A stretch of 64,000 nt of DNA. It comes from Marinobacter arenosus (GTDB lineage: Bacteria > Pseudomonadota > Gammaproteobacteria > Pseudomonadales > Oleiphilaceae). The stretch covers positions 2,604,001 through 2,668,000 of the forward strand of contig NZ_JAHVAO010000001.1 in NCBI RefSeq assembly GCF_019264345.1, written 5' to 3'. Positions 24,238 to 54,455 of the stretch are shown here, piece after piece; the stretch's first letter is position 1; the number at the start of each line of letters is the position of its first letter. The notes beneath the pieces are model-generated. The model had not been told where the DNA came from. It ran no database searches and saw only the letters and a program-made list of their open reading frames with translations. Made by a program: the position numbers and the translations under genes.

Positions 24238-24324
24238 CTGCGGGGCGGGTATTAATTTCCTTGGAAAAATAACTCGCTTCGCTCAGACATATTTTTCTGG
24301 CGGGAATTAATACCCGCCCCACAG
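24238..24324. repeat. Composite palindromic repeat, copy A
   Basis: Outer arms 24238-24257 and 24305-24324 (20 bp, one mismatch) enclose an A/T-rich inner arm pair (AAAAATA/TATTTTT) and the 19-bp core AACTCGCTTCGCTCAGACA at 24271-24289. It sits in the 169-base gap between the radical SAM and symporter genes. The core differs at one base from copies B and D. Confidence 0.9.
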
Positions 24325-24374
24325 ACCGCGCGGTTCGCCGTGCTGTGCGCTAAAAGTAACGTGGATTTTTTACG

Positions 24375-25778
24375 ATGACGACGTTTGAGGGTGCCCTGTT
24401 CTGGGGGTTTCTGGTGGTTTACGGCATTGTGATGTATGTGCTGTCGCCGAAAAGTAAGAACGCGAATTCCTTTTACAAAGGCGCGGATGATCAGGGCAAT
24501 CCGGTGAGTCAGTGGTCGCTGACGGCGAGTATTTTCATCAGCTGGATTTTTGCCAAGTCGGTGACCAACGCGGCCAATCTGGGGGCGGCGTACGGGGTAA
24601 CCGGCGGCCTCGCCTACGCCAGTTACTGGCTGTCGATTCCGGTGGCCGGTTACATCATCTATCTCATCCGGACCCAGACCGGGGCCCGGAGTCTTCAGGA
24701 TTTCCTGACGTCGCGGTTTGGTCGGCTGGCGGCGCTGGCGTTTGCCGCGGCGATTCTGATTCGTCTGTACAACGAGGTCTGGAGCAACACCGCGGTCGTG
24801 GGTGGCTACTTCGGCCTGCCGGGGCAGTGGGAGTACTACGCCGCGGCGATGCTCTTTACCGTGTTTACCCTCGCCTACAGCCTCAAGGGTGGTTTGCGGT
24901 CATCGATCTTTACCGACGTGATCCAGGCCTTCGTGTTTGTCTTTTTTGTTGGCGCGGTCCTGTTCCTCATCCTGCCGGCCAATGACACCAGTGCCCTGCT
25001 CAGCAATGGCGAGTTCCGGCTGGATGCCGGCTTTGATCTGCTGCTGGTGGCGCTGCTGCAGATGTTCAGTTACCCGTTCCACGATCCGGTCCTGACCGAC
25101 CGGGGCTTCGTGAACAAGGAAAAGACCATGCTGAAGAGTTTCGTGGTCGCCGGGCTGCTGGGCTTCGTGGCGGTGTTTATTTTCAGCCTGGTGGGCGTGC
25201 ATGCCCGTCTCAATGGCATCGACGCCATGGGTAACGCGCCGGCGGCGGTTGGTCAGTCCCTTGGTCTGGCGGCGCTGTTCTTCATGAGCGTGGTGATGAT
25301 GACCTCGGCCGGCTCGACCCTGGACTCCACGTTCACCTCGCTGGCCAAATCCCTGGCGGTGGACCTGCCGCGGCTGGCCAGACGGGCCAAGAACCGTCTG
25401 CCGAGTATCCGGGTGGGTGCGCTGGTCATGGTGATCTTTGCCTTTGCCGGCAACCTGCCGATGTTCGCCGGCACCGACATTCTCAAGGCGACCACCATTT
25501 CCGGTACCATGGTGATGGGGTTGGCGCCGGTGTTCCTGTTCTATGGTTTCACCCGCTGGTCGCCCTGGAGTTTTCACCTGAGTTTCTGGACCGGCCTGGG
25601 GTTGGGTGTGTTGCTCGCGGCCGGTCTGATACCAGCCAGCTGGGCCATCGGTGACGGCAAGTACGCCATGCTGCTCGGGGTCAACGCTTACGGCTTCCTG
25701 ATCTGCTCGTTCGGGTTCTTCGTGCCGTTGGCGCTGCGCCGTCTGGCGGGTCGTTCGCTGGCGGCCGGCGAAGCCTGA
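24375..25778 (+). CDS. Sodium:solute symporter (SSS) family protein
   Basis: A 467-residue membrane protein with about 12-13 helices of the SSS/LeuT-like fold. Recognisable stretches are SLTASIFISWIFAKSVTNAANLG at the start and FLTSRFGRLAALAF, as in pantothenate/proline/urea-like members; the long-tail signature of sensor fusions is absent. The ribosome site is weak (GTGGA). It lies between the radical SAM gene and a metallophosphoesterase-like gene 12 bases downstream, so the latter is likely co-expressed. Substrate unknown. Confidence 0.85.
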   Translation: MTTFEGALFWGFLVVYGIVMYVLSPKSKNANSFYKGADDQGNPVSQWSLTASIFISWIFAKSVTNAANLGAAYGVTGGLAYASYWLSIPVAGYIIYLIRTQTGARSLQDFLTSRFGRLAALAFAAAILIRLYNEVWSNTAVVGGYFGLPGQWEYYAAAMLFTVFTLAYSLKGGLRSSIFTDVIQAFVFVFFVGAVLFLILPANDTSALLSNGEFRLDAGFDLLLVALLQMFSYPFHDPVLTDRGFVNKEKTMLKSFVVAGLLGFVAVFIFSLVGVHARLNGIDAMGNAPAAVGQSLGLAALFFMSVVMMTSAGSTLDSTFTSLAKSLAVDLPRLARRAKNRLPSIRVGALVMVIFAFAGNLPMFAGTDILKATTISGTMVMGLAPVFLFYGFTRWSPWSFHLSFWTGLGLGVLLAAGLIPASWAIGDGKYAMLLGVNAYGFLICSFGFFVPLALRRLAGRSLAAGEA

Positions 25779-25790
25779 GGAGACGGCGTT

Positions 25791-26741
25791 ATGAGTGCAG
25801 GTCGAAGTTGTCCACTCGCCTACCGGTATCGGCCTGACGTCCTGTGTGAGCAGGCGACGCCCGTGCCCGAGGACGTGCTCTACATTGTCGGCGGGCTGTA
25901 CGGGAATCCTTTTGCCCTGGACGAAATCGAGCGCATGGTCCGTGCCGAGGAGCGGCTTGGGCACAGGGTCCGGCTGGTGTTCAATGGCGACTTCAACTGG
26001 TTCAACGCCAGCGATCCGCTGTTTCGCGACATCAACACGCGGGTCCTCGACCACACCGTCAGCCTGGGCAATGTCGAGTACGAACTTGGCAACCCGAGCG
26101 CCGAAGCCGGGTGTGGCTGTGCCTACCCGGATTTCGTTGAACAGGGCGTGGTTGAACGGTCGAACCGGATCATGGCCCGGCTGCAGGGGGTGGCTGACCG
26201 TCACCCCGATCTCCAGAACCGGCTTTCGTTGCTGCCTCGGTACCTGTGCCTGATATTTGGAGGCCTAAAGATTCTGGTTCTGCACGGCGATCCGGAATCC
26301 CTGGCCGGCTGGGGGCTGGCCCATGAGTCCTTTAGTGCAGCTAATGAATTGGTGGTGCAGGAGTGGCTGCGGGCCACCGGTGCCGATGTGATTGCCTGCA
26401 CCCATACCTGCCTGCCGGTACTCTGGTCCGGGCGGGTCCAGGATCGGGTGCGCACTGTGGTCAATAACGGCTCGGCCGGCATGGGTAACCTGCGTGCCGA
26501 TCCCCGGGGGCTGATCACGCGGATCGGTTTTTCCCGCCCCACGGCAGCCCCCGTGACAGGCTGCGAGCAGCGCGGCGCCCACGTTTCCCTGCTGCCGGTG
26601 GCCTTTGATTCCGCGGCCTGGCTGGCGGAGTTCGATGGACTCTGGCCGGCGGGTTCGGACGCCGCCGAATCCTATCGCCGGCGTATTCTGAACGGCACCT
26701 CCCTGGATCCCGCGTCGCTGGTTTTTCCTTCCGTTTCCTAA
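25791..26741 (+). CDS. Metallophosphoesterase-like protein with altered metal ligands
   Basis: A 316-residue calcineurin-fold protein. The fold motifs can be traced but key ligands differ: the first D-x-H appears as GLYGN (Asp and His lost), GDFNW keeps the second Asp, GNVEYE keeps Asn but replaces His of GNHE with Val, LHGDPES keeps its His, and THTCLP replaces the last His of GHTH with Cys. NNGSAGMGN at the end is typical of the family. It may be inactive, use fewer metals, or have changed chemistry. Start follows GAGGAGA, 12 bases after the symporter gene. Confidence 0.75.
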   Translation: MSAGRSCPLAYRYRPDVLCEQATPVPEDVLYIVGGLYGNPFALDEIERMVRAEERLGHRVRLVFNGDFNWFNASDPLFRDINTRVLDHTVSLGNVEYELGNPSAEAGCGCAYPDFVEQGVVERSNRIMARLQGVADRHPDLQNRLSLLPRYLCLIFGGLKILVLHGDPESLAGWGLAHESFSAANELVVQEWLRATGADVIACTHTCLPVLWSGRVQDRVRTVVNNGSAGMGNLRADPRGLITRIGFSRPTAAPVTGCEQRGAHVSLLPVAFDSAAWLAEFDGLWPAGSDAAESYRRRILNGTSLDPASLVFPSVS

Positions 26742-26827
26742 CGATTTTGTCACTGGCGAATGCGTCAAACCGGTCTATTCTGAAAGAACGAGCCGGGGCC
26801 CACTCAGAGGGAGCCGCGAAAGCTGAC

Positions 26828-26855
26828 TTGAATTATATTTTGTGGTCTATATAAT
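26828..26855 (+). promoter_or_regulatory. Sigma-70-type promoter of the ectoine operon
   Basis: TTGAAT (26828-26833) and a perfect TATAAT (26850-26855) with a 16-bp spacer in an unusually A/T-rich stretch (26829-26870), 36 bases before the ectA ATG. A/T-rich, near-consensus promoters are common upstream of osmotically induced ect genes. Confidence 0.7.
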
Positions 26856-26890
26856 TTAGCACTAACTTTTTGAGGCGAATTGATCACGTT

Positions 26891-27406
26891 ATGACATCTG
26901 AAGGATCGAATACCACCGCCATCTCGCTTCGCACACCCGTGAAGGACGATGGCTACAGGCTCCACCAGCTGGTGGCAGAATGCCCGCCGCTGGACCCCAA
27001 CTCGATTTACTGCAACCTCTTGCAGTGCAGCCACTTTGCCGAAACCGGCGTGGCCGCGGAGAAGGAAGGCGATCTGGTCGGCTTTATCTCCGGATACATC
27101 CCTCCCCAACAGCCCGAGACCGTGTTTGTCTGGCAGGTGGCGGTTCACGAGAAAGGTCGTGGACAGGGCCTGGCCAAGCGGATGCTGAAAGAGATCGTCG
27201 GCCGTGAGGCGTGCAAAAACGTCACGCACATGGAGACGACCATCACCGCAGACAACGAGGCCTCTTGGGCGCTGTTCCGCTCATTCGCCCGTGATATGGG
27301 AGCCGAGCTCACCTACCACGAGCACTTCGAGAAAGAGACCCATTTTGGTGGGCAGCACGATTCCGAGTTCCTGCTGCGCATCGGGCCCTTCACGAAGCCT
27401 GTCTGA
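26891..27406 (+). CDS. ectA: L-2,4-diaminobutyrate acetyltransferase
   Basis: A 171-residue GNAT enzyme that acetylates 2,4-diaminobutyrate at N-gamma in ectoine synthesis. Family stretches include CPPLDPNSIYCNLLQCSHF, the acetyl-CoA loop VHEKGRGQGLAKRML and the end FLLRIGPF. The ATG is taken as start; an in-frame TTG lies 21 bases upstream but overlaps the GAGG region. First gene of the ectA-ectB-ask set, expressed from the strong promoter just upstream. Confidence 0.93.
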   Translation: MTSEGSNTTAISLRTPVKDDGYRLHQLVAECPPLDPNSIYCNLLQCSHFAETGVAAEKEGDLVGFISGYIPPQQPETVFVWQVAVHEKGRGQGLAKRMLKEIVGREACKNVTHMETTITADNEASWALFRSFARDMGAELTYHEHFEKETHFGGQHDSEFLLRIGPFTKPV

Positions 27407-27471
27407 GAGCCCCGGTCCACGCCGGTGAAAGCCGGCCGTGAACGACTGTGAGACTGTGTTTTGGACTAGCC

Positions 27472-28870
<1,399 letters not shown>

Positions 28871-28921
28871 GACGCCTCCCGGCTCCGCACATTCATTCTG
28901 CAGGATAGCGAAGGCAAACCT

Positions 28922-30373
28922 ATGACTACCCAACAACATACCGTCGAGAAAATTGGCGGTACCTCAATGAGCAACTACGAGGCCGTTCGCGATAACATCA
29001 TTATTGGCAATCGCGACAAGGAAGACCTCTACCAGCGTATTTTCGTGGTCTCCGCCTACGGCGGCGTCACCAACGAACTGCTGGAGCACAAGAAGACCGG
29101 CGAGCCGGGCGTTTACGCCCTGTTTGCCGACGCCGAATCGGACTGGGCCTGGGGTGACGATCTCACCAAGCTGGTGAAGTTTCTCACCGACATCAACGGT
29201 GACCTGTTCGAGGACCCGATGCTCAAGCAGCAGGCCGACCAGTTCATCACCGACCGCATTGAAGGCGTCCGTGGCTGTCTGATCGATCTCCAGCGCCTGT
29301 GCTCCTACGGCCAGTTCCAGCTCGAGGAGCACCTGTTGACGGTGCGCGAGATGCTCGCCGGCATTGGTGAAGCCCACAGTGCGTTCAACACCGCCCTGAA
29401 GCTGCAGCAGGAAGGCATCAACGCCCGCTTCGTGGACCTGACGGGCTGGCGCGATGCGGAACTGCTGCCGCTGGATGACAAGCTCAAGCAGGCCTTCGAC
29501 GCCGTTGACCTGACCCGGGAGCTGCCGATCGTTACCGGTTACGCGCAATGCAAGGAAGGTCTGATGCGCACCTTCGACCGGGGCTACAGCGAAATGACCT
29601 TCAGCCGGGTGGCGGTGATCACCGAGGCCCGTGAGGCCATCATCCACAAGGAATACCATCTGAGTTCCGCGGACCCCAACATCGTCGGTGCCGACAAGGT
29701 CGTTCCGCTGGGTCGCACCAACTACGACGTGGCGGACCAGCTTGCCAACCTCGGGATGGAAGCCATCCACCCCCGTGCGGGCAAGGGGATGCGCCAGAAC
29801 GAAATTCCGTTGCGGGTAATGAACACCTTCGAGCCGGAGCACACCGGGACACTGATCACCGGAGATTACGTCAGCGAGACGCCGCAGGTCGAAATCATAG
29901 CCGGTGCCAAGGGCGTGTTTGCCATCGAAGTGTTCGATCAGGACATGCAGGGCGAGCCCGGTTCCGACCGCCGCATCCTGGATGTATTGGGCCGCTTCAA
30001 GGTGCGCTTCATGGCGAAGGACACCAACGCCAACACCATCACCCACTATGTGGACAGCACGCTCAAGCATGTGAAGCGTGTGGTGCGGGCGCTGAAAGAG
30101 GAGTTTCCGAACGCCGAGATCAACACTCGCAAGGTCTCACTGGTGTCTGCGATCGGCAGCGACATGAAGGTGCCGGGCATTCTTGCCCGTTCCGTGAATT
30201 CGCTGACCGAGAACGAAATCAGTGTCCTGGCCATTCACCAGTGCATGCGACAGGTGGACATCCAGTTCGTGGTCGATGAAGACCACTATGAAAAGGCGAT
30301 TGCCGCCCTTCACGGTGCCTTGATCGAGCCACACAATCACGAGTACGCCATCGTGGCGGCCTCGATCGAGTAA
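28922..30373 (+). CDS. Ectoine-pathway aspartate kinase (Ask_Ect)
   Basis: A 483-residue aspartokinase of the specialised type found in ectoine operons. It starts with the KIGGTSMSNYEAV motif (residues 10-22) and has an insert-bearing N-terminal kinase domain and two C-terminal ACT domains (about 330-480, including VSLVSAIGSDM and NEISVLAIHQCMRQVDIQFVV). It supplies aspartyl phosphate for aspartate semialdehyde and is thought to escape the usual lysine/threonine feedback. It follows ectB directly, where ectC would normally stand. Confidence 0.93.
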   Translation: MTTQQHTVEKIGGTSMSNYEAVRDNIIIGNRDKEDLYQRIFVVSAYGGVTNELLEHKKTGEPGVYALFADAESDWAWGDDLTKLVKFLTDINGDLFEDPMLKQQADQFITDRIEGVRGCLIDLQRLCSYGQFQLEEHLLTVREMLAGIGEAHSAFNTALKLQQEGINARFVDLTGWRDAELLPLDDKLKQAFDAVDLTRELPIVTGYAQCKEGLMRTFDRGYSEMTFSRVAVITEAREAIIHKEYHLSSADPNIVGADKVVPLGRTNYDVADQLANLGMEAIHPRAGKGMRQNEIPLRVMNTFEPEHTGTLITGDYVSETPQVEIIAGAKGVFAIEVFDQDMQGEPGSDRRILDVLGRFKVRFMAKDTNANTITHYVDSTLKHVKRVVRALKEEFPNAEINTRKVSLVSAIGSDMKVPGILARSVNSLTENEISVLAIHQCMRQVDIQFVVDEDHYEKAIAALHGALIEPHNHEYAIVAASIE

Positions 30374-30443
30374 CGGATTACCCGTAGGCGGAACCGGTCG
30401 CTTCGTCTGCGGGTAATGGAGGTTGTCTTGCCTCCAGGTCGGG

Positions 30444-30489
30444 GTGCCCGGCTGGCCGGTCTGCAGTGGCAGGTTGCAAGGCCGGGCAC
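30444..30489. other. Long GC-rich hairpin after ask
   Basis: Stem GTGCCCGGC/GCCGGGCAC (30444-30452 and 30481-30489) enclosing 28 bases, in the 253-base gap before the sigma factor gene. A second inverted pair, ATTACCCG/CGGGTAAT, lies at about 30377-30412. Neither has a T-run. They may act as a weak terminator or mRNA 3' end structure; nothing else is visible in the gap. Confidence 0.4.
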
Positions 30490-30626
30490 CACCCGATCCC
30501 CATCCGGACCGGACGATTTCTTCCTTTTATCCTTCCCCGTGACGACTACCCTCGACCTCAGGGGTGGTTAATCCATCAACACCTGAACAACGTATCTTCT
30601 GTAAATTTCCGACCGGTACCATAGCC

Positions 30627-31625
30627 ATGCGTAAAACGGATAGGCTGGGACCGTCTCCGACCACGCCCAACGATGGCGAAAGGGATTCCCTGGTTGGGCT
30701 GTATTTCAGGGATGCGTCCCGGTATGAGCTCCTGACGGATGAGGCGGAGCGCCGCCTCTCCCGAAAACTGACCCGCTGCTACCGCACCATCAGTACCGAA
30801 CTGGCGTTGCCGGTGGAAACCCCGCAGACCTTTCGGGAAGTCATCGGAAGTCTGGGGGATGCGTGCGCCTTTTCGACCCGCTGTCGCCGGGCCTTTCATC
30901 TGGCGACTGCGTGTCGTCGCAAGCTGATCCAGAGCAACCTGCGCCTGGCTGTGCACATTGCGCGCCGCTACGGTCAGCATGGCATTCCGATGTCGGACCT
31001 GATCCAGGACGCGAATATCGGCCTGATCAAGGCCGCCGAGCGATTCGATCCCGGCAAGGGCTTTCGGTTCTCGACCTACGCGTACTGGTGGATCAGTGAA
31101 GAGGTGAAGCGCTGCCTTCAGCGCGGAACCCGTCTGGTGCACACCCCCGAAAACGTGGTCGATGAAATTCGCCAGTTGCACCGGGTATCGCTGGGCATGC
31201 ACCAGACCCTTGGCCGCACCCCGTCCCAGTCCGAGCTGGCCAGGGAAATGGAGGCTTCGCCCTCCCGGATCGGCGAATTGCGCGCCCTCGCCTTGCGTGA
31301 GGTGTCCACGGACGTCCCGTTGGTCGACGATGGGTCTGTGACCCTGGGAGACAGCCTGGAGGCGGCAGAACAGCAGGCTCCCGAGCATGCCATGTCGCAG
31401 CGCGACCGCCGCCGGACCCTGACCGCCATGATGGGAGAGCTGACCGATCGTGAACAGGCCATCCTGTCACGACGCTACGGTCTTGGTCTGCCCGAACCGG
31501 AGACGCTGCAGGTCATTTCGGATGATCTGGGGATCAGTCGGGAGCGGGTTCGTCAGATTGAGAAGATGGCGGTGAAGAAACTGCAGAGCCGATTCTCTGA
31601 CCCCGAGGATGTCTTTGGAGCCTGA
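30627..31625 (+). CDS. Sigma-70 family RNA polymerase sigma factor (RpoS/group 2-like)
   Basis: About 332 residues. Region 1.2 (LVGLYFRDASRYELLTDEAE), region 2 (LIQSNLRLAVHIARRYG, FDPGKGFRFSTYAYWWI), region 3 and region 4 (LTDREQAILSRRYGLG, ISRERVRQIEKMA) are all present. A segment of about 45 residues between regions 1.2 and 2.1 (after LSRKL) is longer than in RpoS and has no match I recognise. No good ribosome site is seen; a GTG 63 bases upstream is an alternative start. It lies just after the ectoine genes and may be a stress sigma factor; this is inferred. Confidence 0.85.
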   Translation: MRKTDRLGPSPTTPNDGERDSLVGLYFRDASRYELLTDEAERRLSRKLTRCYRTISTELALPVETPQTFREVIGSLGDACAFSTRCRRAFHLATACRRKLIQSNLRLAVHIARRYGQHGIPMSDLIQDANIGLIKAAERFDPGKGFRFSTYAYWWISEEVKRCLQRGTRLVHTPENVVDEIRQLHRVSLGMHQTLGRTPSQSELAREMEASPSRIGELRALALREVSTDVPLVDDGSVTLGDSLEAAEQQAPEHAMSQRDRRRTLTAMMGELTDREQAILSRRYGLGLPEPETLQVISDDLGISRERVRQIEKMAVKKLQSRFSDPEDVFGA

Positions 31626-31634
31626 CCGTCCCGG

Positions 31635-32090
31635 TCAGGCTCCGTGCAACAGCACATACCAGGCGCCAATCGCCACCTGGCAGAGCAGTACTACGAACGT
31701 GAGAAACAGACGCAGGCGCAGGTACCAGTCCGGCCAGTAGAGTCGCATCCAGCGGGCGTCGACCAGATAGAGGGCCAGATACGCGACCGTGTAGAGCAGA
31801 ATCTGACCCGGCGTCGAAAGCAGCAGGCCGACGCCGGCGGTTACGAAAAAAATCTGGCTGAACACCATGGTCACGAGCGGGGACTGCGGATAACAGCAAT
31901 CGTCCAGTTGCATGGAAATGGGCCAGTACACCCCGGCCATGAAGGCAAGAATCCCCGCGCTGTACAGGTAGAACCAGGACACCGCCGCGACGCTGTACTG
32001 GGGCATGAGGTACACGGTTGCGACCGCCGCGAGGAAGGGCAGCAGGCCGGCGACACCAAATACGATGGCCAGTCGGGCAACAGCAATCAC
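31635..32090 (-). CDS. DUF3429 family membrane protein
   Basis: A 151-residue protein with five hydrophobic helices. Features of DUF3429 include the N-terminal GLLPFLAA segment, FLYSAGILAFMAGVYW-like second and third helices (here SWFYLYSAGILAFMAG) and a DARWMRLYWPDWYLRLR loop. Function unknown in the family. Its ATG overlaps the stop of the upstream DUF6482 gene by four bases, showing translational coupling, and it ends the pdxH-PPTase-tag series. Confidence 0.82.
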   Translation of the reverse strand: MIAVARLAIVFGVAGLLPFLAAVATVYLMPQYSVAAVSWFYLYSAGILAFMAGVYWPISMQLDDCCYPQSPLVTMVFSQIFFVTAGVGLLLSTPGQILLYTVAYLALYLVDARWMRLYWPDWYLRLRLFLTFVVLLCQVAIGAWYVLLHGA

Positions 32091-32392
32091 GTCTTTTCCC
32101 TCTGCACCCTTATCCGCATGGGCTCAACGTGGGCCGGCTCCATCCCAACCATCTCATGGTACGCGGACGGGTGCACCACCTGGGTCTCCCGGACCTGAAA
32201 CCCCGCGAGGGTGTCCTGGATCTGCCAGGAACTTCGGAACAGGCTGGTGACTCCGTCTTTGTCGGACAGCAACAGCAGTCGGCCATCCAGCGTAAGCCTG
32301 GCCATGTAGTGCTGGCCTTCGAGGGAGATGATTTCCAGCAGTTCGATGACCGGACCTTGGCTGTTTCGCAATTCTTCCAGGGTGATTCTCAC
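32087..32392 (-). CDS. Conserved small protein (DUF6482-like)
   Basis: A 101-residue soluble protein, without signal peptide or Cys. The segment LEGQHYMARLTLDGRLLLLSDKDG looks like a beta-rich core; the tail (AYHEMVGMEPAHVEPMRIRVQRE) matches proteins listed as DUF6482 in gammaproteobacteria, as far as I recall. Stop overlaps the next start (ATGA). No function known. Confidence 0.75.
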   Translation of the reverse strand: MRITLEELRNSQGPVIELLEIISLEGQHYMARLTLDGRLLLLSDKDGVTSLFRSSWQIQDTLAGFQVRETQVVHPSAYHEMVGMEPAHVEPMRIRVQREKT

Positions 32393-32449
32393 AGTGAAGC
32401 TCCGGAGTTGGTGTTATTGGCAGTGTTACGACTCCGGTACGTAATGAGA

Positions 32450-33031: not shown

Positions 33032-33034
33032 CGC

Positions 33035-41420: not shown

Positions 41421-41422
41421 GT

Positions 41423-45899: not shown

Positions 45900-46123
45900 C
45901 TGTGTACTCCTCACTTTGGCTGATGTCATGGCTTCAGTGTGGGAGAGTCAACGCCGGGACGGAATGCGCGAAGAGGACGGCCATCGTTCAGGATGGGCCA
46001 GCGGGGATGGCGCAATTGACTAAGTTGACGGTGTCACACCTGCCCCCCGCCCCACTGTGGCGCCGGAGACCTTCTGATAGAGTCGGGACATCGCGTTTGG
46101 AAACTTCCCGCAAAGGACCTCTT

Positions 46124-47230
46124 ATGACAACAACCGGACCGGAAAAAGAACGGCGGATGCTGGGCCTGTTCCTGGTGCCCGGCGTGTACATGCGGGTCCT
46201 GGCGGAAACGGTCCGGCAGCTCGGCCACAATGATCGGAAGCTCTACGACGGGCTCAACTTCACCGCCGATGACCTCAAGGCCAACGACAGTCGGGTGTTT
46301 GTGACCGACGCGATCCTGATGGCGCAGCGTGCCCTGGATCTGGCGGGCCCGGACGGCCTGAGCTTTGCCCTGGCACGCGAGTTGCGGCTGACCATCCACG
46401 GGACACTCGGGTTTGCCGCCCTGACCAGCCCCACCTTCGAGGGCGCGCTGGATTCCGTGCACCGATACCTGCAATTGCGGGCGCCCTTTCTGAGCATGAA
46501 ACAGTCCCTGGCCGGCGAACGGGTCCTGGTGCAGCTGTGTACCGAGTTCGATGTACCCGAGCTCTACCCGTTCCTGGCCGAAACCGTCAGTGCCACCCTG
46601 ATCCTCCTGACCGAACAGCTGCTCGACCGCGACGACGCCCAGAGCAAGGGGTTTGCCCTGGAGCACGGCAAGCTGCCCGGCGTCACCGTGCGCCTGAGCG
46701 CACCCGAGCCGCCATACTATCGACGGTTTGCTGACCAGTTTCCGGTACAGTTTGAGTATGGTCAGCCGGAAGAAATGTTGGTCTTTCCCCGGCAATTGCT
46801 TGAGGTGCGCATGCGCCTGGCCGACGCCGATGCCTCGGAAATGGCCCGGGAGCAGTGTGAGTTCGAGTTGCAGAAGGCCCTGAAGGAGCAGGGAGACATC
46901 ACCCTGGCGATCCGCAATATGCTGAGGATGATGCCGGGGCCCCTACCGTCGCTGGAGGCCATGGCCGAACGCTTCTGCGTCTCGTCCCGGACCCTGAAGC
47001 GACGGCTGGCGGAGAAAGACACCCACTACCGGGAAATTGTCGAGTCGGTGCTCAAGGACCGCGCCATCCAGCTGCTGCGGTACACCAATCAGTCGGTCAG
47101 CGAGATTGCCTACGAGCTGGGGTACGCGGACCTATCCAATTTCAGCCGGGCGTTCCGCAAGTGGACTGGCAAGTCGGCCAGCGAGTTTCGGGAGGACGGG
47201 CCTGATCCGGCGCCCGAACTAGGGCCTTGA
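46124..47230 (+). CDS. AraC family transcriptional regulator with arabinose-binding-like N-terminus
   Basis: A 368-residue regulator: N-terminal PF12625-type ligand region (about 15-205) and two C-terminal helix-turn-helix units (about 270-360, MAERFCVSSRTLKRRLAEK and SVSEIAYELGYADLSNFSRAFRKWTG). OruR/ArgR-like layout. Start at MTTTGPEK with AAAGGA 7 bases upstream; the open frame runs 81 codons further without support. Divergent from the PF10118 gene, its likely target. Confidence 0.9.
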   Translation: MTTTGPEKERRMLGLFLVPGVYMRVLAETVRQLGHNDRKLYDGLNFTADDLKANDSRVFVTDAILMAQRALDLAGPDGLSFALARELRLTIHGTLGFAALTSPTFEGALDSVHRYLQLRAPFLSMKQSLAGERVLVQLCTEFDVPELYPFLAETVSATLILLTEQLLDRDDAQSKGFALEHGKLPGVTVRLSAPEPPYYRRFADQFPVQFEYGQPEEMLVFPRQLLEVRMRLADADASEMAREQCEFELQKALKEQGDITLAIRNMLRMMPGPLPSLEAMAERFCVSSRTLKRRLAEKDTHYREIVESVLKDRAIQLLRYTNQSVSEIAYELGYADLSNFSRAFRKWTGKSASEFREDGPDPAPELGP

Positions 47231-47279
47231 GGTGGGGTTTCCTCGTTTCTGTGACCGCTTCTATGGGAGCGTGGTCGCA

Positions 47280-47360
47280 GGGTGATGGTTTATTTTTTCA
47301 GAGAAAAAGAACTCGCTGCGCTCAGACACCTTTGTTCTCTGAAAAAATAAACCATCACCC
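47280..47360. repeat. Composite palindromic repeat, copy B
   Basis: Perfect 26-bp outer arms (47280-47305 and 47335-47360) enclose a 29-base loop holding the core AACTCGCTGCGCTCAGACA (47310-47328). The arms read GGGTGATGGTTTATTTTTTC and its complement, unlike any other copy. Lies 50 bases after the AraC gene. Confidence 0.93.
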
Positions 47361-47451
47361 CACGCCCTTCTGACTCATTAAGAAGCCGTCTCGTTGGTTT
47401 CAGTATTTTTGTCCTTTGTTTTCAGCAACTATGCCCTTATTGTCTGACGGA
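47361..47451. other. Spacer between repeats B and C, no gene seen
   Basis: The 378-base gap between the AraC and TM2 genes (47231-47608) is dominated by repeats B and C; these 91 bases between them and the flanks hold no supported gene. The TM2 promoter should be in 47539-47608, but no clear hexamers stand out. Confidence 0.5.
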
Positions 47452-47538
47452 CGGGGGCCGGATTATTTTTCCCGCCAGGAAAAAGATGTCTGAGCGCAAC
47501 GAGTTGTTTTTCCCAAGGGAAAAATAATCCAGCCCCCG
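47452..47538. repeat. Composite palindromic repeat, copy C (inverted core)
   Basis: Outer arms 47452-47473 and 47517-47538 (22 bp, one mismatch) and inner arms GGAAAAA/TTTTTCC around the core in reverse orientation (TGTCTGAGCGCAACGAGTT, 47487-47505). Each outer arm can also pair with its neighbouring inner arm (TTTTTCC-GGAAAAA; TTTTTCCC-GGGAAAAA), giving an alternative two-hairpin fold. Confidence 0.92.
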
Positions 47539-47608
47539 GCCAGCCACCGTCATAGTCAGGCTAGGTGATCACGGAACTGCGCAAACGAGCCATCATAAGG
47601 AAGCCAAT

Positions 47609-48016
47609 ATGGAAACCAGAACAGACACGCACAGCAAACTCTTCGGTTACCTGCTCTGGATCTTCGGATTCCTGGGCTCCCACCGTTTCTACTACGGCAA
47701 GCCCATCACCGGCACCATCTGGTTCTTCACCCTGGGCCTGCTGTTCATCGGCTGGATCATCGACCTGTTCCTGATCCCGTCCATGGACCGGGAGGCGGAC
47801 TTCCGTTTCCGTGAGGGCGAAGTCAGCTACAACATCGGCTGGCTGCTGCTGACCTTCACCGGCGTGTTCGGGCTGCACCGGATGTACATGGGGAAATGGA
47901 TCACCGGCATCATCTACCTGCTCACCGGCGGCCTGTTCCTGCTGGGCGTGCTCTACGATTTCTGGACCCTGAACGACCAGATCTCCGAACGAAACCGGGA
48001 GCATCGCTTCGGCTGA
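47609..48016 (+). CDS. Tandem TM2 domain membrane protein
   Basis: A 135-residue protein built from two copies of a TM2 unit: residues 10-50 (FGFLGSHRFYYGKPITGTIWFF) and 75-125 (FTGVFGLHRMYMGKWITGIIYLL), each with the G-x-H-R-x-Y motif and a hairpin of two helices. Most TM2 proteins have one unit, so this is an internal duplication. Function unknown. Its stop directly abuts the stop of the convergent WS/DGAT gene. Confidence 0.88.
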   Translation: METRTDTHSKLFGYLLWIFGFLGSHRFYYGKPITGTIWFFTLGLLFIGWIIDLFLIPSMDREADFRFREGEVSYNIGWLLLTFTGVFGLHRMYMGKWITGIIYLLTGGLFLLGVLYDFWTLNDQISERNREHRFG

Positions 48017-49381
48017 TCAGAGCGTGGCCGCGCGTTCCAGCTCTACCAGGCCGTCCTCCAGGTAGTCGAGCATGCGTTGCAGGCTGGGCAGCGTGCGGCG
48101 GCAGCCGATCAGACCGAACTCGACCTGGTCCCGGTAGCTGGTCAGGGTCATGTTCAATGCCAACCGGTCCATGGCAATGGAGACCGGGTACATGCCTTCC
48201 AGCCGGGCGCCGTTCCAGTAGCGGGTTTCTTTCGGGCCGGGCACGTTGGAGATAACCACGTTGAAGGTCTGCCATTTCGGCGCCATGCCGGTGAGCAGGT
48301 GGAAGGCCGCCGGTGCCAGAGTCAGGGCGGTGTAATTGAGAATCTCCTCCGAGGACATCTTGGCGTAGCGGTCTTTGGCCAGTTTGACGTCCTGATGGAT
48401 GTGCATCAGCCGGGCAACGGGATCGACGAGATCGGTGCCCAGGGACGCCAGGATGATGCCCACCTGATTGCCCTCGGCGCTGTCGTCGTGGCGCAGGGAG
48501 ACCGGCACCATCGCGATCAGCGGCTTGTCGGGCAAGGCGTCCAGGTTCATCAGGTAAGTGCGCAGGGCACTGGCACACATCGCCATCACCACGTCGTTCA
48601 CCGTTGTGCCAAACGCCCGGCAGACCTGGCGGATTCGTTCCATGCCGTAGGACTGTGCCGCGAAACGTCGGGAACCGGTAATCTTCTGGTTCAGTAGGCT
48701 ACGCGGTGCGTGGAAAATCGAGTCGTAGGCAGGGTTCTTCCGGGCCTCGTTGACGGTGCGCAGGATTTCCCGAGCCACCGTGGGCACGGTGCCCAACTGC
48801 TTCCCGGATTCGCCCAGCAAATGACCAATACTGCGCCAGAGCGTCGGCCGGCTGGCGCTGTCCCGCCCGGCACCTGCCGGCAGGTCCCAGATGGGTGGCA
48901 TGTTCCGCTCAGAGGGATCGGTGCTCAACATGCGTTGACCCATGCGCATGGCGGATACCCCATCCATCAGCGCATGGTGAACCTTGATGTAGAGTGCAAA
49001 CTGGCGGTCCCCCAGACCTTCAATCAGGTGAAACTCCCACAATGGCCGTTCCCGGTCCATCAGGTGTGAATGCTCCGCTGAGACGAAGGTCAGGAGTTCC
49101 CGGATACGCCCGGGCGTGGGCAACGCCTCGAAGCGGAAGTGATGTTCCAGGTCCAGATGTTCGTCGTGGACCCACACCGGCTGGGCCAATCGGGTGTCGA
49201 GGCGTCGATCGAACGGTGCCGTGACCTCCGTGTGCTGGCGGAGCTGGTCGGCCAACTGGGCGACGTAGTCGTCCGGGGCGTCGTCCGGAAACGAAAACAG
49301 CTGCAGGCCGCCCACGTGCATGGGTTGCTGTCGCTTTTCGAGCCATAGGAACAGCTGGTCGGTGGGGCTCAGGGGTTTCAC
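48017..49381 (-). CDS. Wax ester synthase/diacylglycerol acyltransferase (WS/DGAT)
   Basis: A 454-residue bifunctional acyltransferase that esterifies long-chain alcohols or diacylglycerol with acyl-CoA to make storage lipid. Catalytic HHALMDG lies at 135-141; other family motifs are PLSPTDQLFLW at the N-terminus, NDVVMAMCASALRTYL and ISNVPGP near the end. The GTG start has AAGGA 8 bases upstream and yields the usual length; the open frame extends 23 codons further. Typical of Marinobacter, which keeps several copies. Confidence 0.93.
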   Translation of the reverse strand: MKPLSPTDQLFLWLEKRQQPMHVGGLQLFSFPDDAPDDYVAQLADQLRQHTEVTAPFDRRLDTRLAQPVWVHDEHLDLEHHFRFEALPTPGRIRELLTFVSAEHSHLMDRERPLWEFHLIEGLGDRQFALYIKVHHALMDGVSAMRMGQRMLSTDPSERNMPPIWDLPAGAGRDSASRPTLWRSIGHLLGESGKQLGTVPTVAREILRTVNEARKNPAYDSIFHAPRSLLNQKITGSRRFAAQSYGMERIRQVCRAFGTTVNDVVMAMCASALRTYLMNLDALPDKPLIAMVPVSLRHDDSAEGNQVGIILASLGTDLVDPVARLMHIHQDVKLAKDRYAKMSSEEILNYTALTLAPAAFHLLTGMAPKWQTFNVVISNVPGPKETRYWNGARLEGMYPVSIAMDRLALNMTLTSYRDQVEFGLIGCRRTLPSLQRMLDYLEDGLVELERAATL

Positions 49382-49543
49382 GCTGCCATCCTTTTCATTG
49401 GGTGTCTGGGCCGATAGTAGCCTAATTGCCGACGGTCTAAATTGACCCATTCGCGAATTCCGGAGTTGCTGGCGGTCAGGTCTGGTCTAAGGTTCATTTC
49501 GTAGCACTTAATTCGGGTTATCAAAAAGATCGGAGGGTGCCGG

Positions 49544-50641
49544 GTGCGAGTATTGGGAGGAATGCGAAGGGCGACTGTCCACGGGAACGTCCGGTTGGGG
49601 GCGTTGCTGTTGTGGCTGGTTGCGGCGGTGGCGTCCGCGCAACAGGCCCCGGGAGTCCGGCTCGAGACCGTGTCCAGGGAACCCATTATCCAGGAGGTGT
49701 CGCTCAACGGCACCGTCAATCCGTTGCGGGTGTCGTCGATTTCGCCTGCCGTGGCCGGACTGTTGGATTCGGTCAGGGTTGAAGTCGGCGATCGGGTATC
49801 CCGGGATGACGTACTGGTTGAACTCGATGACGAGCAGGCCGTCTACGAACTGGCAGCCGCCAGGGCCGAAACCGACCAGGCCCGTGCGTTGCTGGCGGAG
49901 GCGGAGCGGCGGCTCGAGGAAGCGCGTTCGGTCGGCGCCGGCCGGAACATTGCCGCCACCGAGGTACGCAGCCGCGAAAGCGACGTGGTGGCTGCCCGCG
50001 CTGCCCTCGCCCGGCTTGCGGCCGTGGTCAATCAGATGGAGGTCCGCGTTCGCCGGCACCATGTACGGGCGCCCTTCGACGGTGTCGTCAGTGAGCGGAC
50101 CAGTGACCTCGGTGAGTGGGTCACTCCGGGTGACGAACTGCTTCGGCTGGTGGACACCACCAACCTGCGCCTGGATTTCCAGGTGCCCCAGGAGTATTTC
50201 GACCGGTTGGATGAAGGCTCCAGCCTGCGGGTTCGACAGGGGACTGGTTTTGTCGAGGCAACCATCAACACCCGGGTTCCGGTGACCGACCCGCAGTCGC
50301 GGACCTTCCTGCTGCGGGCGCTCCAGCCTGAGGGCGCCGGATTCTGGCCGGGCATGGCGGTGCAGGCCGTACTCCGGGTCAGCACCGGAGAGGAAGGGCT
50401 GACCGTTTCCCGGGACGCCATCAACCGCTACCCCGAGGGCCGGGTGACGGTCTGGATTGCCCAATCTGCCGAGGGCGACACCTACACCGTGAGTGAAAAA
50501 CGGGTGCGCCTGGGGACCGCCTTCAAGGGTCGGGTTGAGGTCACCGATGGCCTGAGCGGGGGTGAGCAGGTGGTTATTCGGGGCAACGAGTCGCTCAGTG
50601 AGGGGATTACCGTCCGGATTGCTGAGCGGGAGGCCCGCTGA
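49544..50641 (+). CDS. RND efflux periplasmic adaptor (membrane fusion protein)
   Basis: A 365-residue exported adaptor: signal peptide (about 1-32, ending ASAQQ), lipoyl-like and barrel-sandwich motifs, a helical hairpin (about 100-160), and a beta-barrel domain (about 200-280). The GTG start has GGAGG 7 bases upstream; the ATG at codon 7 is too close to its own GGAGGA. The stop TGA shares its A with the ATG of the RND gene. No outer-membrane TolC-like gene follows. Confidence 0.9.
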   Translation: MRVLGGMRRATVHGNVRLGALLLWLVAAVASAQQAPGVRLETVSREPIIQEVSLNGTVNPLRVSSISPAVAGLLDSVRVEVGDRVSRDDVLVELDDEQAVYELAAARAETDQARALLAEAERRLEEARSVGAGRNIAATEVRSRESDVVAARAALARLAAVVNQMEVRVRRHHVRAPFDGVVSERTSDLGEWVTPGDELLRLVDTTNLRLDFQVPQEYFDRLDEGSSLRVRQGTGFVEATINTRVPVTDPQSRTFLLRALQPEGAGFWPGMAVQAVLRVSTGEEGLTVSRDAINRYPEGRVTVWIAQSAEGDTYTVSEKRVRLGTAFKGRVEVTDGLSGGEQVVIRGNESLSEGITVRIAEREAR

Positions 50642-53600
50642 TGTTTGCCGGCGTGATCCGCCACGGTATCCTCGTCGCCGTTATTGCCCTGATCGTCGCG
50701 ATCCTGGGGACCGCGGCCGCGTTCCGGATACCGGTGCAGATGATTCCGGATCTGGAGGTTCGGACGGTCACCGTCGAAACCCGTTGGCCGGGCGCCACGC
50801 CCCAGGACATCGAGAAAGAGATCCTGATCGAACAGGAACGGTACCTGCGCAACGTGCCGAACCTGAGCCGGATGATGGCGACCGCGGAGAGTGGCTCGGC
50901 GGAAATCGAGCTGGAGTTTCCGTTCGGTGTCGACATCACCGAAACCCTCATTCAGATCAACAATGCCCTCAGCCAGGTTCCTGATTACCCCCGCAATGTT
51001 GATGAACCCCGTATCGTGGCCGCGTCCTTCTCTTCGAATTCCTTCATGTACCTGCGTGTCTCGACCCTGGAAGGCAATCCTCGGGAGCTGGACATCGAGC
51101 TGATGCGCGATTTCATTGAAGACCGGGTGCGCCCCCGGATGGAAAGCGTACCCGGGGTGTCGGAAGTGGAAGTCGGGGGTGGCGCCGACCGGCAGATGCA
51201 GATCATTGTCGACGCGGCGGCGCTGGCCCAGCGTGGCCTGAGCCTGGTGGACCTGCGCGATGCGGTCACCGATCGCAACCGGGACATCTCCGGTGGCGAG
51301 ATTGAGGCCGGCAAGCGCCGCTACCTGCTGCGTACCGTCGGCCGCTTCGACGATATCGAGGCGCTTGAACGGCTGGTGGTCCTTCGCCAGGGCGACAGTG
51401 TGGTGCGGTTGGGGGAGGTGGCCCGGGTTGAGCCCGGCCACTCCCGCATCCGGGAATTGGCGAAGATCAACGGCCGGCGGGTCATCGGTCTGCAGGTCCG
51501 GCGCGAAAGCGGCTCCAACGTCATCGACATCAAGCACGCGATGATGGACGAGGTGGCCGCCATCAACGACGAGGTCCTCAGACCGGCCGGCATGATCCTG
51601 GAATTGACGGCGGACGATGCCCGTTACGTCGAGGCGTCCATCGCCAACGTCTGGACCAACCTGGGCATCGGCGCGGTGTTTGCCACCCTGGTCATGTACC
51701 TGTTCCTTCGATCCGGCCGGGCGACGCTGGCCGGTGTATGCGGGATTCCACTCTGTGCCATCGCGGCGTTCATCGGCCTGCTGATCACCGGACGCACCAT
51801 CAACGTGATCTCGCTGGCGGGCATTGCCTTTGCGATTGGCATGACCGTGGACAACAGCATCGTGGTGCTGGAGAACATTGAACGACACCGCCGTCTGGGC
51901 CTGGATCGCTTCGAGTCGGCGCTCAAGGGCGTGAAGGAAGTCTGGCCCGCCGTGCTGGCCTCCACCGCCACCACCATGCTGGTTTTCCTGCCGATCCTGT
52001 TCATCGATGAGGAAGCCGGGCAGCTCTATTCGGACGTTGCCATCGCCATTTCGGCCGCCATCCTGGCCTCAATGCTGGTGGCCATCACGATCATCCCGAC
52101 CCTCTGCGCCCGGCTGGATTTCGGCCGCGGAACGGTCCAGACCGATCAATACGGCAATGAGACCGCCGGCGGCTGGGCCACCACCGTGATGGCGACCGTG
52201 CGCTGGCTGGTGTCCGGCTCGGTGCGGCGGATCCTGGTGATCGCCACCACCGTGCTGGCGAGTGCCTGGGTGATCCTGTTCCTGACACCACCGGCGGAGT
52301 ACCTGCCCGAGGGCGAGGAACCCAAGACCTTTGCCGCCATGAGCGCACCGCCCGGCTACAACCTGGACGAAATGGCCGCGATCGGGCAGCAGGTGGAAGA
52401 CCATTTCCTGCCCCATGTAAACGCGGACGGTGCGGCCTACGCGGCGGGCGAGACCGGTGTGCCGCCGATGGCCTACCTGAACCTGCAGATCACGCCCACC
52501 GGCCTGAGAATCATCGCGGAGACCCTGGAACCGACGCACATCGAGGCGTTGATGGACGAGATCACCCGGGTCTACGAGCAGTTTCCGGGCATGCGCGCGT
52601 TTGCCGCCAAGGGGTCGATCATTTCCAGCAATGACGGCGGCACCCGCAGCATCAATCTGGACATTTCCGGGCCGGACCTGGTCTCGGTCTATCAGGCCGC
52701 CAACGCTGCCTACCGGCAGGCCGAGGCCATTTTCGACAACCCGCGGATCCAGAGCCAGCCGTCGACCCTGTCCCTGGCTCAGCCGCTGATCCAGATCCGG
52801 CCGGACTGGGACCGGGCGGCCGAACTGGGCCTGGATACCGAAGCCATCGGTTTTACGGTGGCGTCGCTGACCGAAGGCAGTTACATCGACGACTTCTTTC
52901 TCGATGACGACAAGATCGATATCTACCTGTACGGCCGCGAGGGCCGGGATTCAAAGCTCACCCGGCTGCCGGATGTCATGGTGCACACGCCCGAAGGCGC
53001 CACCCTGCCGCTGTCCAGTGTGGCGGCCATCGAGGAAACCGTGGATACCAGTGTGGTCCGGCGGGTGGACGGTCGACGAACGGTCACCCTCAACGTGATT
53101 CCACCCGGGGACGTTCCGCTGGAAGCTGGCGTGGAACGGGTGCGTACCGAGTTGCTGCAGGCGATGCGGGAGAAAGGCACGTTGCCGGCCAGTGTGAACG
53201 TTGACATCTCCGGTGCCAGTGACCAGCTCAACGCCACCCGCGACGCCCTGGCTGGTAACTTCATCATCGCCATTGCCATTGTCTACCTGGTCCTGGTGGC
53301 GATCTTTGCGCACTGGGGCTTCCCGCTGCTGATCCTGACCGCGATTCCCCTGGGCGTTGCCGGTGGCATTGTCGGCCTGGCCTTGATGAACCTGGTCGGG
53401 GGCCTGCTGCCGTTGCTCGGCCTGCAGCCGCTGCGCCAGCCCTTCGACATGATCACCATGCTGGGCTTCCTGATCCTGATGGGTACGGTGGTGAATAACC
53501 CGATTCTGGTGCTGGACCAGGCCCGCCAGAACCTGCGTCACAAGGGCGGCTCGGTGGTGGACGCGGTTACGGATGCGGTCCGCACCCGCCTGCGCCCCAT

Positions 53601-53805
53601 CGCCATGACGACCCTGACCACGCTGTGTGGCCTGTCGCCCCTGGTGTTCCTGCAGGGCGAGGGTACCGAGCTCTATCGTGGCGTGGGGGCGATTGTGCTG
53701 TTTGGCCTGGTGGGTGCGGCGATTGTGACGGTGACGTTTCTGCCGGCGCTGACCATCGTTGTTCTGGGCTGGCGGGAGCGTTTCAGGACGGCCTCTGGCC
53801 GGTAG
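50641..53805 (+). CDS. RND family efflux permease (AcrB-like)
   Basis: A 1054-residue trimer-type RND pump with twelve helices and two large periplasmic loops. The helix-4 proton-relay segment reads GMTVDNSIVVLEN, so the second of the two Asp residues of AcrB (Asp408) is Asn here, a variant known in several RND subgroups. Translationally coupled to the adaptor gene through TGATG. Substrate unknown. Copy D of the repeat family lies 28 bases after the stop. Confidence 0.92.
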   Translation: MFAGVIRHGILVAVIALIVAILGTAAAFRIPVQMIPDLEVRTVTVETRWPGATPQDIEKEILIEQERYLRNVPNLSRMMATAESGSAEIELEFPFGVDITETLIQINNALSQVPDYPRNVDEPRIVAASFSSNSFMYLRVSTLEGNPRELDIELMRDFIEDRVRPRMESVPGVSEVEVGGGADRQMQIIVDAAALAQRGLSLVDLRDAVTDRNRDISGGEIEAGKRRYLLRTVGRFDDIEALERLVVLRQGDSVVRLGEVARVEPGHSRIRELAKINGRRVIGLQVRRESGSNVIDIKHAMMDEVAAINDEVLRPAGMILELTADDARYVEASIANVWTNLGIGAVFATLVMYLFLRSGRATLAGVCGIPLCAIAAFIGLLITGRTINVISLAGIAFAIGMTVDNSIVVLENIERHRRLGLDRFESALKGVKEVWPAVLASTATTMLVFLPILFIDEEAGQLYSDVAIAISAAILASMLVAITIIPTLCARLDFGRGTVQTDQYGNETAGGWATTVMATVRWLVSGSVRRILVIATTVLASAWVILFLTPPAEYLPEGEEPKTFAAMSAPPGYNLDEMAAIGQQVEDHFLPHVNADGAAYAAGETGVPPMAYLNLQITPTGLRIIAETLEPTHIEALMDEITRVYEQFPGMRAFAAKGSIISSNDGGTRSINLDISGPDLVSVYQAANAAYRQAEAIFDNPRIQSQPSTLSLAQPLIQIRPDWDRAAELGLDTEAIGFTVASLTEGSYIDDFFLDDDKIDIYLYGREGRDSKLTRLPDVMVHTPEGATLPLSSVAAIEETVDTSVVRRVDGRRTVTLNVIPPGDVPLEAGVERVRTELLQAMREKGTLPASVNVDISGASDQLNATRDALAGNFIIAIAIVYLVLVAIFAHWGFPLLILTAIPLGVAGGIVGLALMNLVGGLLPLLGLQPLRQPFDMITMLGFLILMGTVVNNPILVLDQARQNLRHKGGSVVDAVTDAVRTRLRPIAMTTLTTLCGLSPLVFLQGEGTELYRGVGAIVLFGLVGAAIVTVTFLPALTIVVLGWRERFRTASGR

Positions 53806-53833
53806 CGGTTTTCTCAGGGGGTATCGCCGCTTC

Positions 53834-53920
53834 GGGGGTGTGGTGTCTTTTTTCTTTGGGAAAAAGAACTCGCTGCGCTCAGACAGCTTTTTCCTGGCAG
53901 AAAAAAGACACCACACCCCC
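53834..53920. repeat. Composite palindromic repeat, copy D
   Basis: Perfect 22-bp outer arms (53834-53855 and 53899-53920, GGGGGTGTGGTGTCTTTTTTCT and complement) and perfect 8-bp inner arms GGAAAAAG/CTTTTTCC around the core AACTCGCTGCGCTCAGACA (53867-53885). Lies between the convergent RND and nirD genes. Confidence 0.93.
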
Positions 53921-53956
53921 AAATCGGCTTGTTCGGCTGCTCAGATCGACCGATTT

Positions 53957-54325
53957 TCAGGCTACGGCGGATTCTGACTGATTAACTGGGACTTCCAGCC
54001 GGATTTTGTCACCGTCCAACAGCACGGGATAGGTTCTGACCGACACGTTTTCATCTTCCAGGCACTGGCCGGTTACCAGGCTGAAGTGCTGCTTGTACAG
54101 CGGCGATGCCACCACGGGTTCGCCCTTCAAATCCCCTGTGATTCCACGAGCCAGCACATTGGCACCGCTGAACGGGTCGGTATGGCTGATGGCAAACAAC
54201 GCCGGCAGCCGGTGCGGCAAATAGAATACCGCCACCGGTCCATCGTCAGTCCAGACCGCAATACCGGATTCCGGCACCAGATCCTCAACGGTACAAACCG
54301 CGTCCCAACAAGTACGAGCTTTCAT
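53957..54325 (-). CDS. nirD: Nitrite reductase (NADH) small subunit
   Basis: A 122-residue Rieske-fold subunit of assimilatory NADH-nitrite reductase. As in other NirD proteins the Rieske Cys/His ligands are absent; FYLPHR, FAISHTDPFSGANVLARGI and the C-terminal FSLVTGQCLEDE segment are characteristic. It pairs with NirB encoded 154 bases upstream; repeat copy E occupies that gap. Start ATG has AAGGAG upstream. Confidence 0.93.
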   Translation of the reverse strand: MKARTCWDAVCTVEDLVPESGIAVWTDDGPVAVFYLPHRLPALFAISHTDPFSGANVLARGITGDLKGEPVVASPLYKQHFSLVTGQCLEDENVSVRTYPVLLDGDKIRLEVPVNQSESAVA

Positions 54326-54371
54326 GGCTGTTCTCCTTTAATTCTGTCTATCTCAGGGTTCCCTGAGTGAG

Positions 54372-54455
54372 GCGGTATGGGTGTGCTTTTCCGCCGGGAA
54401 AAGATGTCTGAGCGCAGCGAGTTATTTTCCCAGAGGAAAAGTACTCCCTTGCCGC
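54372..54455. repeat. Composite palindromic repeat, copy E (inverted core, within nirB-nirD operon)
   Basis: Inner arms GGGAAAA/TTTTCCC are perfect and flank the reversed core TGTCTGAGCGCAGCGAGTT (54405-54423). Outer arms (54372-54392 and 54435-54455) are imperfect, with about five mismatches over 21 bases. It lies in the intercistronic gap between nirB and nirD. Confidence 0.88.

Follow-up and report, generated by a model that had tools for sequence, protein, structure and literature searches.

A widespread family of hairpin repeats with a nearly invariant tip and variable, complementary stems in Marinobacter and distant bacterial phyla

Results

The stretch analysed here, the window, is a 64,000-nucleotide segment of the Marinobacter arenosus genome (contig NZ_JAHVAO010000001.1, positions 2,604,001 to 2,668,000 of the forward strand) that contains five copies, A to E, of a palindromic element built around a common core (Table 1). 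Copy A is flanked by a radical-SAM gene and an SSF symporter, copies B and C by an AraC-type regulator and a TM2-domain gene, and copies D and E by genes for an RND permease, nirD and nirB. The five copies belong to a real, structured and widespread family, in which each unit is a hairpin that joins a nearly invariant tip of 18-19 nt to an inner and an outer stem, with asymmetric internal loops whose motifs are specific to the lineage. The stems are conserved mainly as base complementarity, while the tip is common to distant phyla and neighbouring units are mostly convergent.

When the window was scanned for the core AACTCGCTGCGCTCAGACA at up to three mismatches, exactly five matches were found, against a mean of 0.01 in 100 shuffles, none of which reached five. 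The cores of B, D and E are exact and those of A and C carry one change each, in agreement with a preliminary description of this DNA; that description also placed all copies between genes, and none of the five lies inside the open reading frames (ORFs) retained by a crude ORF caller. Folded as single-stranded DNA (ssDNA), the plus strands of A to E give -23.9, -29.4, -26.0, -32.2 and -21.7 kcal/mol, with z-scores of -6.7, -9.7, -6.5, -8.2 and -5.6, and for each copy 0 of 200 shuffles folds as well, which bears out the self-complementarity ascribed to the arms. As C and E are on the minus strand, B/C and D/E form convergent pairs.

Table 1. Copies of the hairpin element and associated outer boxes in the window
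Feature	Position	Strand	Remarks
Hairpin copy A	24238..24324	+	core 24271-24289(+), one change
Hairpin copy B	47280..47360	+	core 47310-47328(+), exact; first of a convergent pair
Hairpin copy C	47452..47538	-	core 47487-47505(-), one change; second of the pair with B
Hairpin copy D	53834..53920	+	core 53867-53885(+), exact; flanked by RND permease gene and nirD
Hairpin copy E	54372..54455	-	core 54405-54423(-), exact; between nirB and nirD
Outer box CAGCCTG, copy A	24212..24218	+	59 bp before core; one mismatch to TAGCCTG
Outer box TAGCCTG, copy C	47557..47563	-	58 bp before core
Outer box TAGCCTG, copy E	54476..54482	-	59 bp before core; overlaps nirB stop region

Read in the orientation of the core, the parts 5' of it are, in order, an outer box, an outer arm rich in G, an internal loop that is small and asymmetric, and an A-rich inner arm; 3' of the core come a T-rich inner arm, an internal loop of the GGCA or TGGCGG type and a C-rich outer arm. 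The loop is about 18-22 nt long. To call the outer arms unrelated between copies, as was done initially, is too strong; their sequences do differ while pairing is kept, but they share this layout and the loop motifs. Across the genome, TAGCCTG occurs exactly at 58-61 bp before the core in 7 of 17 copies, and in one-mismatch forms at -57 and -59 in two copies and at -74 in a third, which gives a (Y)AGCCTG box at -57 to -61 in nine of the 17 (seven exact, two with one mismatch). YAGCCTG boxes sit at the outer ends of pairs, and no clean insertion was seen from which target duplications could be read. A strict search for the outer box plus G-run matches only the pair on contig C3 (three rows).

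The genome (G000; 4.11 Mb in 8 contigs) has 17 core matches at up to two mismatches, 12 of them in C1:2.53-2.76 Mb, two elsewhere on C1 and three on C3; the cluster of 12 spans about 0.22 Mb and is also present in the syntenic segments of two relatives, G016 and G066. Among 100 genomes of the genus, this one included and the set drawn evenly from a larger group, 91 contain the core, with up to 38 matches each, and nine do not. All 17 genome matches are element copies, and so no long complement of the core is present; pairing of the core with a conserved RNA was rejected on this ground.

Alignments longer than 3 kb between the syntenic segments are 79.6-91.9% identical for G016 and 75.6-83.8% for G066. 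The three genomes share the element at orthologous sites, with single pair members missing here or there: copy B is absent from the orthologous place in both relatives and copy C is present in both, and at the C3 pair site of G016 only a core-less palindrome remains, which we read as what a deletion between T-runs would leave. The examined Marinobacter copies are old and inherited in place, with loss of single pair members.

At the site of copy A, 30 orthologous loci were fetched from 100 genomes with the gene, and the core is in place in 16. Their alignment has 89.3% of cells paired and double changes in 13 of 36 pairs. Double-changed cells number 50, compared with 18.3 for shuffles and no more than 12 for slid structures; one orthologue, L370, has a broken, badly mismatched outer arm. 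For nirD, 30 loci were fetched, best matches first, from 76 genomes with the gene, and among these 30 site E is kept in 29 and site D in 11. The alignment of site E (29 rows) has 86.8% of cells paired, and 57 cells show a double change, where shuffles give 24.8 and slid structures 25 at the most; support for the hairpin is less clean here than at site A. The preliminary description had proposed, as one of two possibilities, a structured, maintained element, and the additional copies in the genome and genus, together with the compensatory changes at site A, uphold that proposal. Of the two outcomes that the description had named as speaking against such an element, a genome with no other copies and orthologues whose arms are not complementary, neither was observed, the qualifications being L370 (one of 16 at site A) and the less cleanly paired site E.

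Beyond the genus, a scan for ACTCGCTKCGCTCARACA matched at least 119 stretches, 80 of which have titles, from which we assigned phyla ourselves. The titled matches include Bacteroidota, Bacillota, Pseudomonadota, sulfate-reducer and Desulfuromonadales groups, Nitrospirota and Patescibacteria. Eight loci were taken to be Marinobacter and set aside, a judgement that for L127 and L144 rests on similarity of sequence. Outside Marinobacter, and among the matches listed, 81 of 116 copies have a perfect stem of at least 6 bp no more than 4 nt away from the core, compared with 66 of 5,550 random positions, and a stricter whole-arm test places 63 of 114 copies above the 99th percentile of 1,332 random positions; the stem test leaves out 6 of 122 core matches, and the arm test 8 of 122 near contig ends. 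The Magasanikbacteria copy passes the strict test; the two titled Nitrospira-type copies fail it, one of them also being without a 5-bp stem. Within Gammaproteobacteria, 27 of 229 genomes match the core at up to one mismatch; singletons may be chance, but others have 5 to 34 copies. Core counts run from 1 to 142 per genome in 29 genomes picked for having a match. A control with the reversed pattern is high in some genomes because ACTCGCTTCGCTCA is a mirror repeat. In E. coli, a 32-nt extended-core query matches 5 of 5,426 genomes, in every case along 18 nt of a restriction-modification gene; plasmids yield 25 weak records.

Several other settings of the core were observed. Strong arms are found in 7 of 43 distinct viral copies scored, and at least three viral sequence families carry the 18-mer in a fixed context of their own with no long palindrome (L169, L171, L175 and many more; L188, L198 and others; L172, L191, L201, L217, L226). 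In G104, a Eubacterium metagenome-assembled genome (L338-L357), the core stands in a GGTTACTCGC...ACAATAA context, with a similar arrangement in L057, L061, L072 and L124; the arms are made of simple repeats such as AATTCGG or TTAAGC, and in several copies a GC-rich hairpin comes after the core. The left and right arms of L133 and L154 are mismatched and the right arm resembles that of L065, so that these may be recombinants at the core.

A tip kept over such a range might be a host chromosomal binding site, related to the nucleoid, a gyrase-like protein or replication, that is extruded as a cruciform and is not mobile. An 18-nt tip conserved across phyla does suggest one conserved binder, and the positions of copies are conserved, the cluster of 12 of the 17 being kept in G016 and G066. 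We nevertheless think this explanation improbable, given a presence so patchy that 27 of 229 Gammaproteobacteria and not all Marinobacter genomes (9 of 100 being without the core) are involved, and a copy number that ranges from 1 to 142 in genomes picked for having a match.

Paralogues in copy-rich genomes provide further evidence on the stems. In Clostridium sp. KNHs205 (G115, the genome of locus L097) the element is a foldback of about 230 bp. An alignment of 25 of its 27 copies (L293 and L451 being left out) has 95.6% of 2,177 cells paired and double changes in 44 of 88 pairs; 173 cells are double-changed, where shuffles give 41.8 and slid structures 21 at the most. Five highly variable positions in the inner stem, chosen after looking at the alignment, show two to four Watson-Crick types and are paired in 125 of 125 cells, with one T.G at a position between them. 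Among 30 fetched left halves, 26 have the core at up to three substitutions and four have a core with an insertion, which is the same small perfect hairpin in L484 and L488 and a single base in L478 and L491. In L293 a single hairpin tip holds two cores, set back to back in inverted orientation; in our reading, this second core and the hairpin in L484 and L488 are such as template switching or tip insertion would leave. G128, by inspection, has two types of element, about 190 and 250 bp long, that share one core. Near-identical foldback families are found in unrelated places within genomes, as expected of copies that multiplied. SbcCD was considered as a limit on foldbacks and rejected, since SbcD passes the cut-off in 4 of 19 genomes, including G115 and G128, which have the longest foldbacks.

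These data bear on how the arms arise. The preliminary description had suggested a process that inverts and copies flanking DNA, and this is not supported: the variable inner-stem block in Clostridium is not enriched in its own flanks (p 0.16), and the internal-loop motifs and fixed-distance outer box belong to the element. Copying of one arm onto the other within the hairpin is possible. It could also be argued that there is no unit at all, and that the palindromes result from mutational template switching around palindromes that already existed, or from a short core inserted into these. Template switching is described, in the portion of the source covered, as creating and mending stems (PMC8794818), the C3 site of G016 has its core-less palindrome, and G104 has its arms of simple repeats. 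This explanation is very doubtful, since the loop motifs, the outer box and the likeness of entire elements within a genome mark the arms as part of the element, and the variable block is not derived from the flanks.

With regard to gene context, 29 copies in three Marinobacter segments (about nine independent sites) occupy 18 tandem, 11 convergent and no divergent gaps, while background gaps of at least 90 bp in these segments are 132 tandem, 26 convergent and 81 divergent; seven of the 29 fall in crude-caller ORFs that we take as spurious. Divergent gaps are occupied elsewhere: in G115 by 2 of the 16 copies that were resolved, and in G128 by 7 of 26, with 11 unresolved in each. Neighbour orientation by the crude caller in the 119 listed loci (62 resolved: 22, 19, 12 and 9; 52 in called ORFs) was too poor and was not used. 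Copies within 700 bp of each other are convergent in all 34 Marinobacter pairs (orthologues included) and in 22 of 29 pairs elsewhere, the exceptions being four divergent (L056, L121, L156, L163) and three direct (L064, L161, L452), and singlets are found where relatives keep pairs. Convergent pairs of two different element types were observed at L282-L284 (G240), with a core spacing of 172-173 bp, and at L297-L300 (G128).

The lack of Marinobacter copies in divergent gaps would suit intrinsic (bidirectional) transcription terminators with a curious loop, as would the T-rich stretch that we read after the inner stem in several Betaproteobacteria, where a GC-rich stem followed by a T-run is partly seen. 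By inspection this arrangement is missing from the Marinobacter copies, which have no T-run after the outer stem; loops of about 18-22 nt, the divergent placements in other genomes, and the ordinary, classical terminator that in our reading adjoins the element at two Marinobacter sites make terminators a most improbable explanation.

The core can be considered on either strand, and isolated mismatches might indicate which of these folds. Isolated non-Watson-Crick pairs are those with two matched pairs on each side, counted without viral copies, G104 copies and copies with an arm score below 36. On the core strand, A.C and G.T pairs number 73:35 in Marinobacter (112 copies), 45:17 in other phyla (91), 29:18 in G115 (27), 45:32 in G128 (36), 4:1 in G200 (4) and 0:0 in G240 (4), ratios from copies that are not independent and to which mutational asymmetry could also contribute an A.C excess. 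The strand TGTYTGAGC(GNA)GCGAGTT contains the GNA-loop mini-hairpin d(GCGAAGC) or d(GCGCAGC), the N of the loop corresponding to the position at which the core alternates between G and T; a melting point of 78 C is given for the GCGAAGC mini-hairpin in the part of the source covered (PMC4686876). Our folding model yields no structure for the bare core on either strand, and the mini-hairpin tip therefore rests on the cited work. Because of the GNA motif, and because isolated mismatches are more often G.T there, this is the likelier folded strand; if the mismatch bias is real, it tolerates wobble.

A link to a RAYT/REP-type transposase or to another gene had been suggested, and neither was found. 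The genome has no Y1_Tnp match at E <= 0.001, and in the genus the core occurs in 40 of 44 genomes without such a match and in 51 of the 56 that have one; of 16 other genomes with copies, 7 also lack a match. We reject RAYT/Y1 as a requirement, with the proviso that a RAYT too divergent for Pfam, or one since lost, would escape. No gene is common to the 119 listed loci; the largest clusters comprise at most nine loci each and read as common transporter, synthetase, regulator and similar families. The left halves fetched from G115, 30 in number and with 40 of 117 candidates having been scored, include no autonomous version of the element.

Nor was a known family found that the element matches. 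In the window only a tRNA passes the Rfam gathering score and no element copy does; nine loci give matches below the threshold only, two of these covering copies B and C (E 0.3 and 0.054). The core and its complements, down to 14-mers, have no match in open-access PMC text (figures being outside the search), and the portions covered of the literature on repetitive extragenic palindromes (REPs), REPINs, miniature inverted-repeat transposable elements (MITEs) and triplexes contain no description of this layout; the default maximal loop of RepRanger, given as 11 nt in the part of its description covered (PMC12306157), is shorter than the loops here. In agreement with the initial statement, no named repeat family with this layout was found.

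An alternative that touches on many of these observations is a structured RNA element, such as a 3'-UTR stabiliser, a processing site or a small RNA, the loop of which is read by a conserved RNA-binding protein or RNase. The 0 of 29 Marinobacter copies in divergent gaps (18 tandem, 11 convergent) would be consistent with this, and so would the presence of site E in 29 of 30 nirD loci with many G-U pairs on the core strand. It is, however, rather unlikely: copies do lie in divergent gaps in G115 and G128, no Rfam family reaches the gathering score over the copies, and in G115 the 173 cells with double Watson-Crick changes far exceed the 21 with one-sided standard changes, unlike drift through G-U.

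Discussion

Our principal contention, to which we give about an even chance, is that all five copies represent one foldback DNA element, dispersed and non-autonomous and comparable to REPINs or MITEs, the conserved part of which is the tip. In its favour we count the copy number and spread of the core, the stems beside it outside Marinobacter, the covariation at site A and in the Clostridium paralogues with their five hypervariable positions, the within-genome families, the convergent pairs, the altered tips of L293, L484 and L488, and the excess of A.C over G.T on the core strand. In such a scheme copies would spread, or would once have spread, as single-stranded or extruded hairpin DNA, with the tip recognised by a putative enzyme acting in trans. 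The arms would be kept complementary by selection for the hairpin, by hairpin-templated (template-switch) repair, or by both, and the combination of selection and repair would explain how copies drift apart from one another without any of them ceasing to be a palindrome. A role in the host may have been acquired later by some copies, as the retention of E in 29 of 30 nirD loci leads us to think.

Several observations weigh against a mobile foldback element. We have seen no insertion event, no empty target site with a duplication and no enzyme; the 30 Clostridium left halves include no autonomous copy; and the examined Marinobacter sites are common to relatives, so that recent movement there is unproven. 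Among the matches listed, a stem of 6 bp beside the core is missing from 35 of 116 copies, no more than 63 of 114 succeed in the strict arm test, and some cores have no palindrome around them. At site E the number of double-changed pairs is 12 against 10.1 in shuffles, and 67 of 500 shuffles reach 12; the site is rich in G-U pairs on the core strand, with 49 cells of one-sided G-U type changes, and its persistence suits a function better than a fossil and suggests a use. Finally, a looser count of A.C:G.T is 51:51 in Marinobacter, the same count being 99:47 in others.

A bolder form of the foldback reading, which we put forward tentatively and consider doubtful, is that this is one ancient hairpin DNA family, defined by a universal mini-hairpin tip rather than by the sequence of stems or ends, that moves or has moved through many phyla by means of a putative hairpin-recognising enzyme, and that contains a hypervariable, always complementary inner-stem block, both arms of which are rewritten together during copying or repair of the element. 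The orthologous and paralogous copies form a natural data set for deciding between selection and template-switch copying of one arm onto the other as the process that maintains DNA hairpins.

The element has clear analogues among known repeats. As described in the portions of the literature covered, REPs have GTAG or CGTC tags at one end, similar stems and mostly short loops, are associated with RAYTs, and are reported in 8 phyla (PMC3116915, PMC3733652). The present family resembles REPs and REPINs, so described, in this broad spread and in being composed of short intergenic palindromes in many copies, with inverted doublets and with singlets regarded as doublet remnants; close pairs are convergent (34 of 34 and 22 of 29), as in REPINs (PMC3116915). 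It differs from that description in that the tip is constant and the stems free, the loops measure about 18-22 nt and there is no requirement for RAYT. Of the 17 copies in the genome, six have GTAG and two have CGTC in the 90 bp that precede the core, at varying distances and giving no consistent tag, and in place of a common stem sequence the arms differ between copies with pairing kept.

The triplex motif TM_ECO, which in the part of its description covered has C- and G-run stems of 9 nt and loops of 3-6 nt (PMC4666352), is similarly an abundant intergenic non-B DNA motif without known function; membership of this intrastrand triplex family was rejected, as sequence and layout, so described, differ. 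MITEs and foldback elements are alike in being small, non-coding, dispersed and self-complementary, and in forming within-genome families, a likeness by description only; unlike them, the present element is conserved across phyla at its centre rather than its ends, and no parent transposase, target duplication or terminal repeat is established. Rickettsia palindromic elements, known from Rickettsia and often located inside genes, are also palindromic, dispersed and of similar size, the comparison being of descriptions and not of sequences. Integron attC sites keep their structure while stem sequence varies, and work as a folded single strand; no cassette array or R boxes of the attC layout were noted around the present element, and no search was aimed at an integrase.

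Known dispersed bacterial palindromes are grouped by their stems, end tags and partner transposase. Here it is the tip that is conserved, from Clostridium to Flammeovirga to Marinobacter, while the stems are rewritten in matched pairs, and this constancy of the tip points to a widespread, as yet nameless activity that recognises DNA hairpins.

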